Source of the DNA: Miltoncostaea marina
GTDB lineage: Bacteria; Actinomycetota; Thermoleophilia; Miltoncostaeales; Miltoncostaeaceae
NCBI RefSeq assembly: GCF_018141525.1
Contig: NZ_CP064655.1
Span: forward strand, 806,001 to 870,000
DNA length: 64,000 bases
Direction: 5' to 3'
This document shows positions 34,795-39,173 of the stretch, one piece after another; positions within the stretch are counted from its first letter, which is position 1; every line of letters starts with the position of its first letter. The translations under genes and the position numbers were made by a program. Below the pieces are notes generated by a model. The model saw only the letters and a program-made list of their open reading frames with translations. It did not search any database and was not told the origin of the DNA.

Positions 34795-35001
34795 ATGGCG
34801 AAGGCAAAGCGGCAGCGGCGCAACAGCATCCGGACGATGTCGGCGGACGCGTCCGCGCTTGACGCCCTCGAGTCGCTGGAGCGCGCCGAGCGCTCGGCGT
34901 CGGTCGAGCCGGCCGGCGACAGCGGTCCCGCCGCCAGCGAGGAGCCGCGCGAGGACGACGACCCGCGCGCGGTGGCCGCGGGCGAGCCGGGCCGGGACTA
35001 G
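34795..35001 (+). CDS. Small charged protein, 68 residues, hypothetical
   Basis: Starts at ATG 34795 behind GGGAGGTGGGAG. The N-terminus is very basic (MAKAKRQRRNSIRTMS); the remainder is acidic and low-complexity (ESLERAERSASVEPAGD, EEPREDDDPRAVAAGE). This polarity suggests a nucleic-acid or ribosome-binding head and a disordered tail. I do not recognise a family. The stop codon shares the CTAG tetranucleotide with the stop of the converging phoU gene. A promoter with a palindrome lies just upstream. Confidence 0.6.
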   Translation: MAKAKRQRRNSIRTMSADASALDALESLERAERSASVEPAGDSGPAASEEPREDDDPRAVAAGEPGRD

Positions 35002-35702
35002 CCGGGCCGGGGCCCGCCGGCCGGCGGCTCGCCGGCCGGGGCGTCCGCCGCGCGGGTGAACGGCTCCCCGCTCACCAGGAAGCGCACCCGGCCGCCGAGC
35101 TCGCCGCCGTTGTTCGCCACCCGCTCGAGGTGGCGCGCCACCAGCACCGCCGCCGCGCCCCAGACCCGCGTCTCGGGCTCGTCCGGCGCGCCGGCGACGC
35201 TGGTGAGGACCTCGTCGAGCATGCCCCGCACGACGGCGGCCTCGGCCTTCGCCTGACCGCCGAGGTCGGCGTCGCCGCGGGCGATGGCCTGCACGGCGCG
35301 CGCCAGGGTGTCGACCGCGCGGGCGCTCATCCGGGAGATGAGCGCCTGGGTCTCCGGCACCGCGCCCTCGGGCCGCACGGACTTGGCCGCCTGGGCGATC
35401 GCGACGGCCAGGTCGCCGACGCGCTCGAGGGCCACGACCGCGATGAGGCCGACGTGCAGCAGCCGCTGATCGGCCGCGACGGGCGCCTCCAGCAGCTGCA
35501 GGTTGAAGACCTTGTGGTCGAGCTCGGCGCAGCGGGCGTCGACCGCCTCGTCGGCCGCGATGACCTCGGAGGCGGCGGTCGCGTCGACCTCCTCCCAGGC
35601 GGCGACGCCGCGCTCCACCTGGGCCAGCACGAGGCTCGCCATCTCCACGAGCCCCGTGCGGAAGCCGTCGATCTCGGCCTGGAAGTGGAGGCGCGTCGTC
35701 AT
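34998..35702 (-). CDS. phoU: PhoU-family phosphate regulator
   Basis: Links phosphate transport to the phosphate two-component system. The 234-residue all-helical protein has two PhoU repeats (about 10-95 and 120-205). Both carry the family's acidic metal-site pattern: RCAELDHKVFNLQLLEAP with ALERVGDLAVAIAQAAK in the first, and RHLERVANNGGELGGRV in the second. TRLHFQAEIDGFRTGLVEMA opens the protein. A Pro/Gly/Ala tail ends it. No pst transport genes are nearby, so it is a detached copy. Confidence 0.92.
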   Translation of the reverse strand: MTTRLHFQAEIDGFRTGLVEMASLVLAQVERGVAAWEEVDATAASEVIAADEAVDARCAELDHKVFNLQLLEAPVAADQRLLHVGLIAVVALERVGDLAVAIAQAAKSVRPEGAVPETQALISRMSARAVDTLARAVQAIARGDADLGGQAKAEAAVVRGMLDEVLTSVAGAPDEPETRVWGAAAVLVARHLERVANNGGELGGRVRFLVSGEPFTRAADAPAGEPPAGGPRPG

Positions 35703-35737: not shown

Positions 35738-36604
35738 TCACCGTTGCGGCAGCCGGCCCCCGGAGAAGGCGATCACCGCGTCGAGGGTGGCGAGCAGGCG
35801 GCTCCCCGGGTCGGCGCGCGTGAAGCGGACGGTGCCGTCGCGCTCCTGCAGGCGCCGCAGCGCCGCGCGGGTGGCCGCCGGGGGGCGGCGGCCCATCGCC
35901 CGCAGCGCCCGGATCACGTTGGAGGTGGGGCCGGCCTCGGTCGGCCGCCCGCCGCCGAAGGCCGCGTAGCCCCCCTCGCGGTTGCGCTGGGCGAGCATCC
36001 AGCGGGTGGCGGAGCGCAGCGCGGGGTTGCGGGCCGGCACGCCGGCCGCTCGGAGCGCCTCGATGAGCAGGGCCGTCGTGTCGACGGCGTCGGCGCGGCG
36101 CGGCGACATCTCGAAGCTCCAGCCGCCGCCCCCCCGCGCGCGCATCGTGGCGCGCACCGCGGCGGCCGGCACCGGGCGGCCCGCCGCGCGCAGCGCCAGC
36201 ATGGAGAGCGCCTGGTCCCAGCTCGTCGCGCCGTAGCGGCCGGCGCCGTAGCGGGCGGTGATGCGGGCGATGTAGTCCTCGCCGGCGAGCCGGCGCGGAT
36301 CGCCGCCCGCCGCGACGGCGGCCATGGCGACCTTCGCGGCGCCGCCCGCCGTGCGCGCGTAGGCCGGGGCCACGCGGCCGAGCGCCCGCAGGCGGGGCCG
36401 CAGCGCGGCGCGCGAGCGCCCCTGCGCGCGCAGGGCGACGATCGCGTCGGCCTGCTGTCCGGCCGGCGCCCCGGCGGTGTTGCGGGTGAGCCAGGCGGCC
36501 GCGCGGGCCGCCGCCCGCTCGTCGGGGCCGGCCGCGAGGCCCGCGGCGGGGGCGGCGAGCGCGGCGGCCGCCAGCGCGGCGAGCGCGGCTGCGCGCGCCC
36601 TCAT
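35738..36604 (-). CDS. Secreted alpha/alpha-toroid protein (prenyltransferase/terpene-cyclase-like repeats)
   Basis: A 288-residue protein with a signal peptide (residues 1-25, ALAALAAAALAAPAAGLA) followed by repeated helical hairpins of the six-hairpin toroid fold. The repeats include SWDQALSMLALRAAGR, DAVDTTALLIEALRAAGVP and GPTSNVIRALRAMGR, with GGGGWSFEM and EGGYAAFGGG turns as in squalene-cyclase/prenyltransferase repeats. No cyclase DxDD motif is present, so it is probably not an enzyme of that type. Animal B12 carriers have an N-terminal domain of this fold. The ATG at 36604 overlaps the stop of the DUF4430 gene, so both are translated from the B12-riboswitch transcript. A cobalamin- or corrinoid-binding role is inferred. 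Confidence 0.82.
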   Translation of the reverse strand: MRARAAALAALAAAALAAPAAGLAAGPDERAAARAAAWLTRNTAGAPAGQQADAIVALRAQGRSRAALRPRLRALGRVAPAYARTAGGAAKVAMAAVAAGGDPRRLAGEDYIARITARYGAGRYGATSWDQALSMLALRAAGRPVPAAAVRATMRARGGGGWSFEMSPRRADAVDTTALLIEALRAAGVPARNPALRSATRWMLAQRNREGGYAAFGGGRPTEAGPTSNVIRALRAMGRRPPAATRAALRRLQERDGTVRFTRADPGSRLLATLDAVIAFSGGRLPQR

Positions 36605-37773
36605 CGCCGGGCCCCCGCCCGGCGCGGCGCGTCCCCGACCCGGAAGGCGCCCGTGTTGATCCGGTTGAGGGCGACGCGCTCGCGGTTGCCCGCGCCGTCG
36701 GTCGCCCGCACCCACACCCGCCACGAGCCCGCCGCGAGCGGCTTCTTCAGCGGCAACAGCCAGTTGCCGCCCGCCTGGCGGGCCCGCACGAACAGCCGCC
36801 GTCCGCACGGGCGCGGGGCGGTGTAGCCGCCGGAGCGCGCGCGGAAGCGGCACTGGCTGCCGACCCGCCTGGCCAGCGCCACATCGACGCGGCGCACGTC
36901 GGATCGGTCGGCGCCGACCACGCCGCGGATCGCGCGCACGGAGCGCGCCCGCGTCCCGAGGCGCGGGCGGGTGACCCGGCTGCCGGGCGCGACGTCGTCG
37001 GCCCGGGCGGCCGCCTGACCGGCGCCCGCCGGCGCCGCGCCCGGTGCGGCGGGGGGCAGGTTGCAGACCGTGGGATCGTCGGCGAACGAGCACACCGCGC
37101 GGGCGGCGCTGCGGATGTCGCCCGCGCGGGTGGCGACCACGGTGCGCACGCCGGCGCCACGGGCGACGAAGGTCGCGCGCCCCGCCGCGTCGGCGGTGGC
37201 GGCCACGTCGCCGTAGCGCACCTGGGCGCCCGCGGCCGGGGCGGCCGCGCCGTCGGCGCCGTAGCTCGTGACGGCGACGGTGAACGTCCCGCCGGCGCCC
37301 ACCCGGTCGGCGGACGGCGTGGCCTCCAGCTCGCGGGCGCCGTCGGCGGCGCCGTAGTACCAGAGCACGCTGTCGCCCTGCGCCAGCGCGCGGTCGCTCG
37401 CGCCGACCGCCGGGCCGACGTGGTTCACCCGGTACTGCCAGCCGGTGGTGCCGGCGTTCTCGTCGGGGCCGACGCGCTGCACCATCACGGCGCCGAAGGC
37501 CGGGAACGACTCGAAGCCCAGGCCGAGCCCGGTGCTCGAGGTGGCGCGGTAGAGCTGCCAGAAGGCCGACGCGCGGCTCACGTCCACCGCCGCGCCGGCG
37601 CGGTCGAAGACGGTCGCGACGCCGTCGCCCTCGATCGGGATGGCGCTCTCGGGGATGAGGGTCGCGGACGACCCCTCGACCCGGATGGTGGTGTCGAGCG
37701 CGACGGCCGGGGCGGCCGCGATCCCCGCGGCGCATGCGGCCGCCAGGGTGGCCCGGAAGGTGGTGCGCAACAT
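36601..37773 (-). CDS. Secreted DUF4430-domain protein under cobalamin riboswitch
   Basis: A 390-residue exported protein. The start ATG at 37773 is followed by a signal peptide to about residue 25 and has GAGGAG 5 bases ahead. Residues 28-141 form a DUF4430 domain with the diagnostic GWQYRVNHVGPAVGASDRAL and GDSVLWYYG; this domain is the C-terminal beta domain of animal intrinsic factor and transcobalamin. An Ig-like domain (about 145-215), a Pro/Ala linker and a C-terminal beta-sandwich (about 265-385, ending VRATDGAGNRERVALNR) follow. Two cysteines (about 218 and 227) may form a disulphide. An upstream in-frame GTG at 37917 lies within the riboswitch and is rejected. With the toroid gene it recreates the two folds of B12 carriers as separate proteins. 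Confidence 0.85.
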   Translation of the reverse strand: MLRTTFRATLAAACAAGIAAAPAVALDTTIRVEGSSATLIPESAIPIEGDGVATVFDRAGAAVDVSRASAFWQLYRATSSTGLGLGFESFPAFGAVMVQRVGPDENAGTTGWQYRVNHVGPAVGASDRALAQGDSVLWYYGAADGARELEATPSADRVGAGGTFTVAVTSYGADGAAAPAAGAQVRYGDVAATADAAGRATFVARGAGVRTVVATRAGDIRSAARAVCSFADDPTVCNLPPAAPGAAPAGAGQAAARADDVAPGSRVTRPRLGTRARSVRAIRGVVGADRSDVRRVDVALARRVGSQCRFRARSGGYTAPRPCGRRLFVRARQAGGNWLLPLKKPLAAGSWRVWVRATDGAGNRERVALNRINTGAFRVGDAPRRAGARR

Positions 37774-37809
37774 GGAGCTCCTCGTCTCGCGGAGGGCGTT
37801 TGTCCGTTG

Positions 37810-37967
37810 CGGGGCGGAGGCAGGTCTCCTGGCTCCCCGGTGTGGCGCGGCACCCGCGGCCTTCCCGGGTCTCCCCAGTGACCGACTCGACGTCATGCGG
37901 GCCCGCTCCCGGGTCACAGTGGCGCGACCGCGCCGGATTCACACCGGCTTCCCTCGCGACCACCCCG
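37810..37967 (-). promoter_or_regulatory. Cobalamin (adenosylcobalamin-class) riboswitch
   Basis: Read on the minus strand, the leader contains in order GGGAAGCCGGTGTGAATCC, GCCACTGTGA, GTCACTGGGGAGACCC, a second GGGAAGG, and the B12 box AGCCAGGAGACCTGCC (complement of 37819-37834). These are the conserved core elements of the cobalamin riboswitch, in the right order and spacing. Closing helix P1 pairs CGGGGTGG (complement of 37960-37967) with CCGCCCCG (complement of 37810-37817), 8 pairs with one G-U. The gene's ribosome site lies about 30 bases below in a GGAGCTCC palindrome, which would suit translational control. Binding would be expected to reduce expression of the two secreted proteins. 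Confidence 0.9.
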
Positions 37968-37980
37968 TGAAGCGGCGACC

Positions 37981-37997
37981 AACCTACCCGGTACGCT
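37981..37997. promoter_or_regulatory. Back-to-back divergent -10 boxes
   Basis: On the minus strand TAGGTT (complement of 37981-37986, in a GGGTAGGTT context) lies about 14 bases above the riboswitch. On the plus strand TACGCT at 37992-37997 lies 6 bases before the GTG of the membrane protein gene at 38004. With only 5 bases between the two boxes, each promoter's upstream part overlaps the other, so the two would compete for RNA polymerase. Confidence 0.5.
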
Positions 37998-38003
37998 GGC
38001 GGG

Positions 38004-38747
38004 GTGTCCACCGTCGAGCGCGTCTGCCGGAACCCGGTGAGCTTCTGCTGGGCGGTCCTGGCGATCACCGTCCTCGGCCTCGCGCTCGACCGCTACGCCT
38101 CGCTCGGCGGCCAGCTCGTGCTGAGCGCGTGCACCTGGGGCTTCCTCGCGATCGCCTTCGTGTACCTGTCGCCGATGGAGCGGGCGCAGACGTCGGTGGT
38201 CGTGGTCGTCGCGACCTGCGCCGAGATCATCGGCTCGGTGATCTGGGGCGTCTACGAGTACCGCCTCGGCAACCTGCCGCTGTTCGTGCCGCCCGGCCAC
38301 GGGCTGGTCTACCTGTGCGGCCTGCGCCTGAGCCAGACGCCGTGGCTGCGCGCCCGCCCGCGGCTGCTCGTGGGCGCCGCCATCGCCGGCGTGTCCGGCT
38401 GGGCGCTGCTGGGGCTGACCCTGCTCGGGCGCACGGACGTCGCGGGCGCGGTGGGCGCCGCCGTGCTCGTGCTGTTCCTGCTGCGCGGCCGCGCGCCCGC
38501 CGTCTACGCGGGCGTGTTCATGGTGGTCGCGTTCCTCGAGATCTACGGCACCGCGATCGGCACCTGGACCTGGGCGGCGGAGATCCCCGGGCTGGGCGTC
38601 GCCGACGGCAACCCGCCGAGCGGCGCGGCGAGCGGCTACGTGTTCTTCGACATCGCGGCGCTCGCCCTCGCCCCGGCCCTGCTGGGCTGGTGGCGGCGGG
38701 CGTCCGGGCGGGCGCCGCGGCCGGCCACCGCCGAGCAGGCGCCGTAG
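38004..38747 (+). CDS. Polytopic membrane protein of unknown function
   Basis: A 247-residue protein with about eight predicted membrane segments covering most of its length (for example VSFCWAVLAITVLGLAL, LSACTWGFLAIAFVYLS, ATCAEIIGSVIWGVYEY and VYAGVFMVVAFLEIYGT). Charged and aromatic residues within segments (EIIGS, EYRLGN, PPGHGLVYL, LEIYGTAIGTWTW) look conserved enough for a binding site. It does not resemble an ECF transporter S component or BtuC that I can recognise. The GTG start follows a -10-like box by 6 bases (leaderless). It diverges from the B12-riboswitch operon over a gap of 36 bases to the aptamer, which hints at a link. Confidence 0.65.
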   Translation: MSTVERVCRNPVSFCWAVLAITVLGLALDRYASLGGQLVLSACTWGFLAIAFVYLSPMERAQTSVVVVVATCAEIIGSVIWGVYEYRLGNLPLFVPPGHGLVYLCGLRLSQTPWLRARPRLLVGAAIAGVSGWALLGLTLLGRTDVAGAVGAAVLVLFLLRGRAPAVYAGVFMVVAFLEIYGTAIGTWTWAAEIPGLGVADGNPPSGAASGYVFFDIAALALAPALLGWWRRASGRAPRPATAEQAP

Positions 38748-39099: not shown

Positions 39100-39173
39100 T
39101 GGGGCGTAGCCAAGCGGTAAGGCAGCGGGTTTTGGTCCCGCGATCGGGGGTTCGAATCCTCCCGCCCCAACCA
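39100..39173 (+). tRNA. tRNA-Gln (anticodon TTG)
   Basis: A complete cloverleaf. The acceptor stem TGGGGCG pairs with CGCCCCA, the D-arm contains AGCCAAGCGGTAAGGC, the anticodon stem GCGGG/CCCGC encloses the loop TTTTGGT with anticodon TTG, and the T-arm carries TTCGAAT. The discriminator base is A and CCA is encoded. TTG reads CAA glutamine codons, which are rare in this GC-rich sequence. It lies just upstream of glmU. Confidence 0.95.

Follow-up and report, generated by a model that had tools for sequence, protein, structure and literature searches.

Layout of the locus

The window (the whole stretch of 64,000 nucleotides of Miltoncostaea marina DNA analyzed here, to which plain positions refer) contains a minus-strand operon in which a cobalamin riboswitch (37803-37998) is followed first by the gene encoding P0002 and then by the gene encoding P0001. 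P0002 (36601..37773) is a protein of 390 amino acids, assigned as a DUF4430 protein by a PF14478 match and AlphaFold2 modeling, and P0001 (35738..36604) is a protein of 288 amino acids, assigned as an alpha/alpha toroid by a SQHop_cyclase_C match and AlphaFold2 modeling. Both are exported, judging by signal peptides identified by eye, and the start codon of P0001 overlaps the stop codon of P0002 (ATGA), in keeping with the two overlapping genes for exported proteins that had been described from the sequence alone. No membrane or wall anchor is visible in either protein.

Downstream of the operon lies a gene identified by eye as PhoU-like (34998-35702). On the upstream side are tRNA-Gln (39100-39173) and a divergent, plus-strand membrane-protein gene (38004-38747). 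The encoded membrane protein, about 250 amino acids long, is predicted to form some seven helices and is not matched by any Pfam family. Its gene is divergent from the operon both here and in two relatives, whereas in G019 it has the same strand as the toroid gene and is found directly 3' of it (loci in relatives: L047:4034-4777, L048:8969-9736 and L049:8141-8923). The protein may be an additional component of the system.

The riboswitch and its expression platform

The aptamer is matched by the whole of the Rfam covariance model RF00174 (model positions 1-189), with 72.3 bits compared to a gathering score of 31.5 and an E value of 6.7e-17. A minus-strand cobalamin riboswitch was the starting point of the sequence-only reading, which would have been refuted by the lack of a hit at this site, and the B12 box, AGCCAGGAGACCTGCC, is found where that reading placed it, at 37834-37819 within the riboswitch. 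The proposed P1 helix was not recovered: the bases at 37960-37967 and 37810-37817 are indeed complementary, but they do not constitute the consensus P1, the outer strands of which are placed by the Rfam model at approximately 37990-37979 and 37824-37810. The core columns of the riboswitch are kept in 17 relatives.

The end of the aptamer is separated from the start codon of the DUF4430 gene by about 30 bases, which leaves no space for a terminator. These bases include a predicted hairpin (37777..37797, minus strand; fold z -2.08), which contains the ribosome-binding site GAGGAG (37778-37783) and is the likely expression platform. Hairpins bearing the ribosome-binding site recur between aptamer and start in relatives, with differing sequences, and ribosome-binding sites behind this riboswitch are paired to a greater extent (0.69) than those of 67 control starts (0.54; p 0.0009). 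This arrangement suggests that the riboswitch acts at the level of translation, with cobalamin binding and the accompanying change in expression being inferred.

Predicted folds of the two exported proteins

The DUF4430 domain that had been attributed to the first gene is supported by a PF14478 match of 30 bits (cut-off 23.8), although only the second half of the profile is covered (positions 35-71 of 72); near the end of P0002, there is also a weak Pfam match to an Ig-like family. DUF4430 is still labeled by Pfam as being of unknown function. In an AlphaFold2 model built from an alignment of relatives (mean pLDDT 88.2), residues 17-143 find their best structural match in the transcobalamin beta domain. 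Nine of the top ten matches are transcobalamin entries (Z 12.9-13.5), among them the human beta domain on its own (5no0, Z 13.2), and the tenth is 3u7z, a bacterial entry titled putative metal-binding protein. This match emerged in an alignment-based second look, the top 50 Foldseek matches of the whole of P0002 being mostly Ig-type proteins. Ig-like domains make up residues 145-231 and 262-381, and the second of them is similar to CopC and to the sulfite oxidase end domain.

P0001 matches SQHop_cyclase_C (PF13243) with 28.7 bits (cut-off 26.1) over 59 residues, and its AlphaFold2 model, likewise built from an alignment of relatives (mean pLDDT 92.4), is a full, single alpha/alpha toroid, as had been anticipated for the second gene. 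The best fold match is squalene-hopene cyclase (Z 26.9), and human intrinsic factor (2pmv) is matched with Z 20.9 over 226 residues. Because many toroids score near Z 20, the match is informative about fold and not about function. With P0002 resembling the transcobalamin beta domain (Z about 13) and P0001 the intrinsic factor toroid, both of the domain folds predicted by the sequence-only reading are recovered. No animal carriers in the PDB were found by sequence profiles of P0001 or P0002 at E values of up to 10, and it is possible that the divergence is too large for such a search.

Association of the riboswitch with related gene pairs

P0002 matches occur in 57 of the 149 Thermoleophilia genomes sampled in a survey of the class. 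The riboswitch was sought at the best 30 P0002 loci, one of which begins at a contig end, leaving 29 testable loci with the window included. A cobalamin riboswitch lies upstream on the same strand in 27 of these 29, mostly 25-50 bases before the DUF4430 start codon, and the two loci without one nearby (L022 and L028) encode DUF4430 paralogues. Because the genomes of the class contain only about one to six riboswitches each, this association is far beyond chance. A consistent lack of B12 riboswitches at related pairs would have spoken against the original proposal, but these pairs are nearly always led by one. Exactly two DUF4430 matches are present in the genome studied here, and each is directly behind a cobalamin riboswitch.

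The association extends beyond the class within the same phylum, where a cobalamin riboswitch is present at all seven loci that combine toroid and DUF4430 and have an intact upstream region (L104, L105, L107, L108, L109, L113 and L114). These riboswitches are located approximately 3 kb before the DUF4430 gene and, in the mapped loci, precede a large first gene. At L104:11849-14440 and L113:1067-3661, this gene encodes a protein of approximately 860 amino acids with PQQ-type beta-propeller and DUF5719 matches. This protein may belong to the same system as a component of the wall or surface.

Cobalamin riboswitches are absent from eight ECF loci that lack a toroid, most of which include DUF4430 (L101-L103, L106, L112 and L115-L117), and from the similar Paraeggerthella locus L077; none was found near the toroid genes of L064 and L120. 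Since DUF4430 and toroid loci free of riboswitches exist, neither domain alone is specific to B12 or proof of a B12 role. The form tied to B12 control is toroid and DUF4430 together. In L120 (958-6691, from a genome of 9 Mb), the toroid gene occurs before ECF genes, with neither DUF4430 nor a riboswitch detected, and it may be that this toroid serves another ligand or is regulated otherwise.

A CbrT-type ECF importer behind a second riboswitch

The other DUF4430 gene of this genome belongs to a sister riboswitch operon outside the window, at about 134713-138744 of G000:C1, about 0.7 Mb from the DUF4430-toroid pair. Behind its minus-strand riboswitch (G000:C1:138560-138744) are genes encoding a DUF4430 protein with a lipobox-like start (identified by eye), a CbiQ-family EcfT (PF02361) and a double ATPase (two PF00005 stretches), and the EcfT and ATPase genes are directly followed by the gene for an S component (about 134713-135381 of G000:C1). 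In other families of the class, a single operon comprises the riboswitch, DUF4430, a second DUF4430, EcfT, EcfA, the S component and the toroid (for example L053-L057, L062 and L063). In G019 (L049), the two operons of the present genome are found side by side, each with its own riboswitch.

An S-component profile, the alignment for which contains the S component of this genome, has one significant match among PDB sequences, covering nearly the full length: CbrT (6FNP_A, E 2.7e-22). Uptake of both cobalamin and cobinamide by CbrT of Lactobacillus delbrueckii has been proven experimentally (PMC5997447). At least 44 of the 79 S-component genes in the class are preceded on the same strand, at a distance of 1.5-5.6 kb, by a riboswitch among the matches listed. 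The sequence-only reading had proposed surveying Thermoleophilia genomes for a link between the pair and corrinoid transporter genes, and such a link is provided by the single operon of the relatives, which includes an ECF importer with a CbrT-homologous S component. In several relatives, the operon also adjoins an adenosyltransferase gene, either of the PduO type (PF01923; L059-L061) or of the BtuR type (PF02572; L062 and L063). On a more distant branch, CobU and CobS lie next to ECF genes whose S component is a distant member of the family (L119:2784-9222), and this CobU is fused to a metallo-beta-lactamase-type domain.

A BtuFCD system would be an alternative route of import. Two strong FecCD permease matches are present (G000:C1:410659-412625), but they are not near any of the genome's four riboswitch matches; a role for BtuCD in this genome is not excluded.

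Probable B12 requirement of the genome

MetH is present, along with further B12-binding domains, one of which is beside a gene that resembles methylmalonyl-CoA mutase by eye. CbiC was not found in this genome, which is a single contig and 99.4% complete. Given that CbiC represents a step common to both de novo pathways, its absence combined with the presence of MetH makes it most likely that the organism takes up B12. Across the class, the S component and CbiC tend toward mutual exclusion, with CbiC present in 8 of 79 genomes that have the S component and in 28 of 70 that do not (p 3.7e-5, uncorrected for relatedness). The third riboswitch of the genome precedes MetE. A fourth match (G000:C1:2541631-2541695; about 11631-11695 of L046) is partial and, at 29.1 bits, below the cut-off; it sits between the MetE and class I ribonucleotide reductase genes, and is possibly a degenerate second riboswitch.

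Fused forms

In G082, DUF4430, an Ig-like domain and the toroid are combined, with the beta domain first, in one exported chain of 641 residues, and a riboswitch is located 0.9 kb upstream with one gene between. In three further genomes (G035, G047 and G111), the S component is itself fused to a toroid, with an additional membrane helix predicted between them from hydropathy only; provided that the S component adopts the usual topology, the fused toroid would lie outside the cell. In G022, the DUF4430 protein also has S-layer homology domains.

Proposed function and its alternatives

It is probable that the pair captures a corrinoid outside the cell, is repressed by B12 and feeds a CbrT-type ECF importer. 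A more specific model, somewhat more likely than not, is that the two proteins are a complete, split, two-part analogue of intrinsic factor, repressed by B12, that clamps a corrinoid between the toroid and the beta domain and delivers it to the CbrT-type importer, and that such systems are widespread in Thermoleophilia and other actinobacterial lineages. In the main reading, at low intracellular cobalamin, the riboswitch would leave the ribosome-binding site free and both exported proteins would be made. On the outer side of the membrane, corrinoid would then be bound by the pair, or by its members together with the DUF4430 lipoprotein encoded in the sister operon, and handed to the importer through its CbrT-type S component, after which cobalamin would switch off both operons. 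Five elements of this reading were established by computation, namely the riboswitch, the folds, the linkage to the importer in relatives, the S component's homology to CbrT and the lack of CbiC. It is inferred, there being no binding data, that the ligand is a corrinoid, that it sits in a joint sandwich-type site and is handed over to the S component, and that the switch acts on translation. The initial interpretation of the pair as a means of B12 or corrinoid capture is nonetheless supported, as the riboswitch is real, the folds fit and related pairs are led by riboswitches; corrinoid binding remains an inference.

The alternative that survives best, while still unlikely, is that there is no shared site, and that corrinoid is bound by DUF4430 proteins while the toroid has a different role, for example docking on the wall or importer. 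ECF-DUF4430 loci without a toroid do exist, which indicates that DUF4430 can function in its absence. However, the two genes are adjacent and overlapping, the two domains are fused into one chain in G082, and a ligand sandwich between such domains is known for transcobalamin (PMC1796856).

Somewhat less credible is a pair that stores or shields extracellular corrinoid or denies it to competitors as a scavenger, in the manner of haptocorrin, without any hand-over to an ECF importer. The distance of about 0.7 Mb between the pair and the importer genes would be compatible with this, as would the absence of a visible membrane or wall anchor. In relatives, however, toroid and DUF4430 are encoded in the importer operon itself, three genomes have toroid and S component joined in a fusion, and co-repression by B12 fits uptake.

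It is also conceivable that cobalt or a precursor of corrin (a lower-ligand base, for instance) is imported in place of whole corrinoids, since EcfT is of the CbiQ family and cobalt transporters are also among the genes controlled by cobalamin riboswitches (PMC3766115). This is improbable on two counts, however: the S component is a homologue of CbrT, the substrates of which include cobalamin and cobinamide, and de novo corrin synthesis from cobalt would not be possible in a genome without CbiC. On these grounds, import of cobalt was judged unlikely. Finally, although squalene-hopene cyclase provides the best sequence and fold matches of P0001, the idea that the toroid is a terpene-cyclase-like enzyme with only a secondary link to the riboswitch has almost nothing left to recommend it and was rejected, as the cyclase DXDD motif aligns to AVDT in P0001, its central acid is replaced by S in the homologues L038 and L013, and this exported single toroid is recurrent in CbrT-type importer operons.

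Relationship to known B12-binding systems

The best reading is that the pair works like a split intrinsic factor/transcobalamin carrier and is a member of a bacterial transcobalamin-like DUF4430 clade, with binding inferred. Both predicted domain folds are shared with the animal carriers (intrinsic factor, transcobalamin and haptocorrin), and the pair is likewise exported. However, the animal proteins are single chains with the toroid first, whereas here there are two chains, beta domain and then toroid, in a bacterial host, with extra Ig-like domains, riboswitch control and apparently an ECF importer in place of a receptor. Because the chain arrangement differs and a sequence link was not found, the pair is not assigned to the animal carrier family.

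Bacterial B12 scavengers combining DUF4430 and a toroid were predicted from domain architecture and operon context by Burroughs et al. in 2007, who also proposed that animals took their B12 carriers from such bacteria (PMC1796856). In a search of the PMC literature, this prediction was the only prior art for the idea, and no experimental test of it was found. The present proteins resemble the SLBB (DUF4430) clade of that work in the DUF4430 domain, in export, in the toroid partner, in predicted B12 scavenging and in their association with CbiO/CbiQ-type genes; here, the CbiQ and ATPase genes are in the sister operon and the toroid is adjacent to DUF4430, and in relatives these genes are in the same operon. 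In the proteins described in 2007, which come chiefly from low-GC Gram-positives, the toroid is fused to the domain and riboswitches are not mentioned (PMC1796856), whereas the present system is split, led by a riboswitch, actinobacterial and tied to a CbrT-type S component. What is new here is the riboswitch control, the homology to CbrT, the split form, the fusions of transporter and toroid and the occurrence across actinobacterial lineages. Independent support for the 2007 prediction, and a named class of ligand, come from the riboswitch, from the S component of CbrT type and from the fusions.

ECF vitamin import is usually thought to function without a soluble binding protein. If the proposed model is true, an extracellular capture step is added to it, and a likely route of B12 uptake is provided for many corrin auxotrophs. 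The closest experimentally studied importer is ECF-CbrT of Lactobacillus delbrueckii (PMC5997447, 6FNP), which has a homologous S component, an EcfT and two ATPase domains, and whose CbrT gene adjoins an adenosyltransferase gene, as the operon does in relatives of the present system. CbrT uses a shared ECF module (PMC5997447), while the module here is dedicated and shares its operon with genes for exported DUF4430 and toroid proteins.

The B12-capturing lipoproteins of Bacteroides are a system for outer-membrane uptake in diderm bacteria. They too provide surface capture of B12 ahead of a membrane importer (PMC6143338).

The proposed model also bears on the origin of intrinsic factor, as the one-chain and transporter-fused forms would suggest a route to a single-chain carrier like the animal one. 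The proteins of the pair are small and soluble, and suit a direct test of binding.

The toroid is not limited to ECF loci. In the archaeon Methanogenium sp. MK-MG (L075:9527-13118), it is fused to a periplasmic-binding-protein domain (PF01497), and this fusion adjoins DUF4430 genes and ABC-type genes. It may be that the toroid also serves BtuF-type importers.
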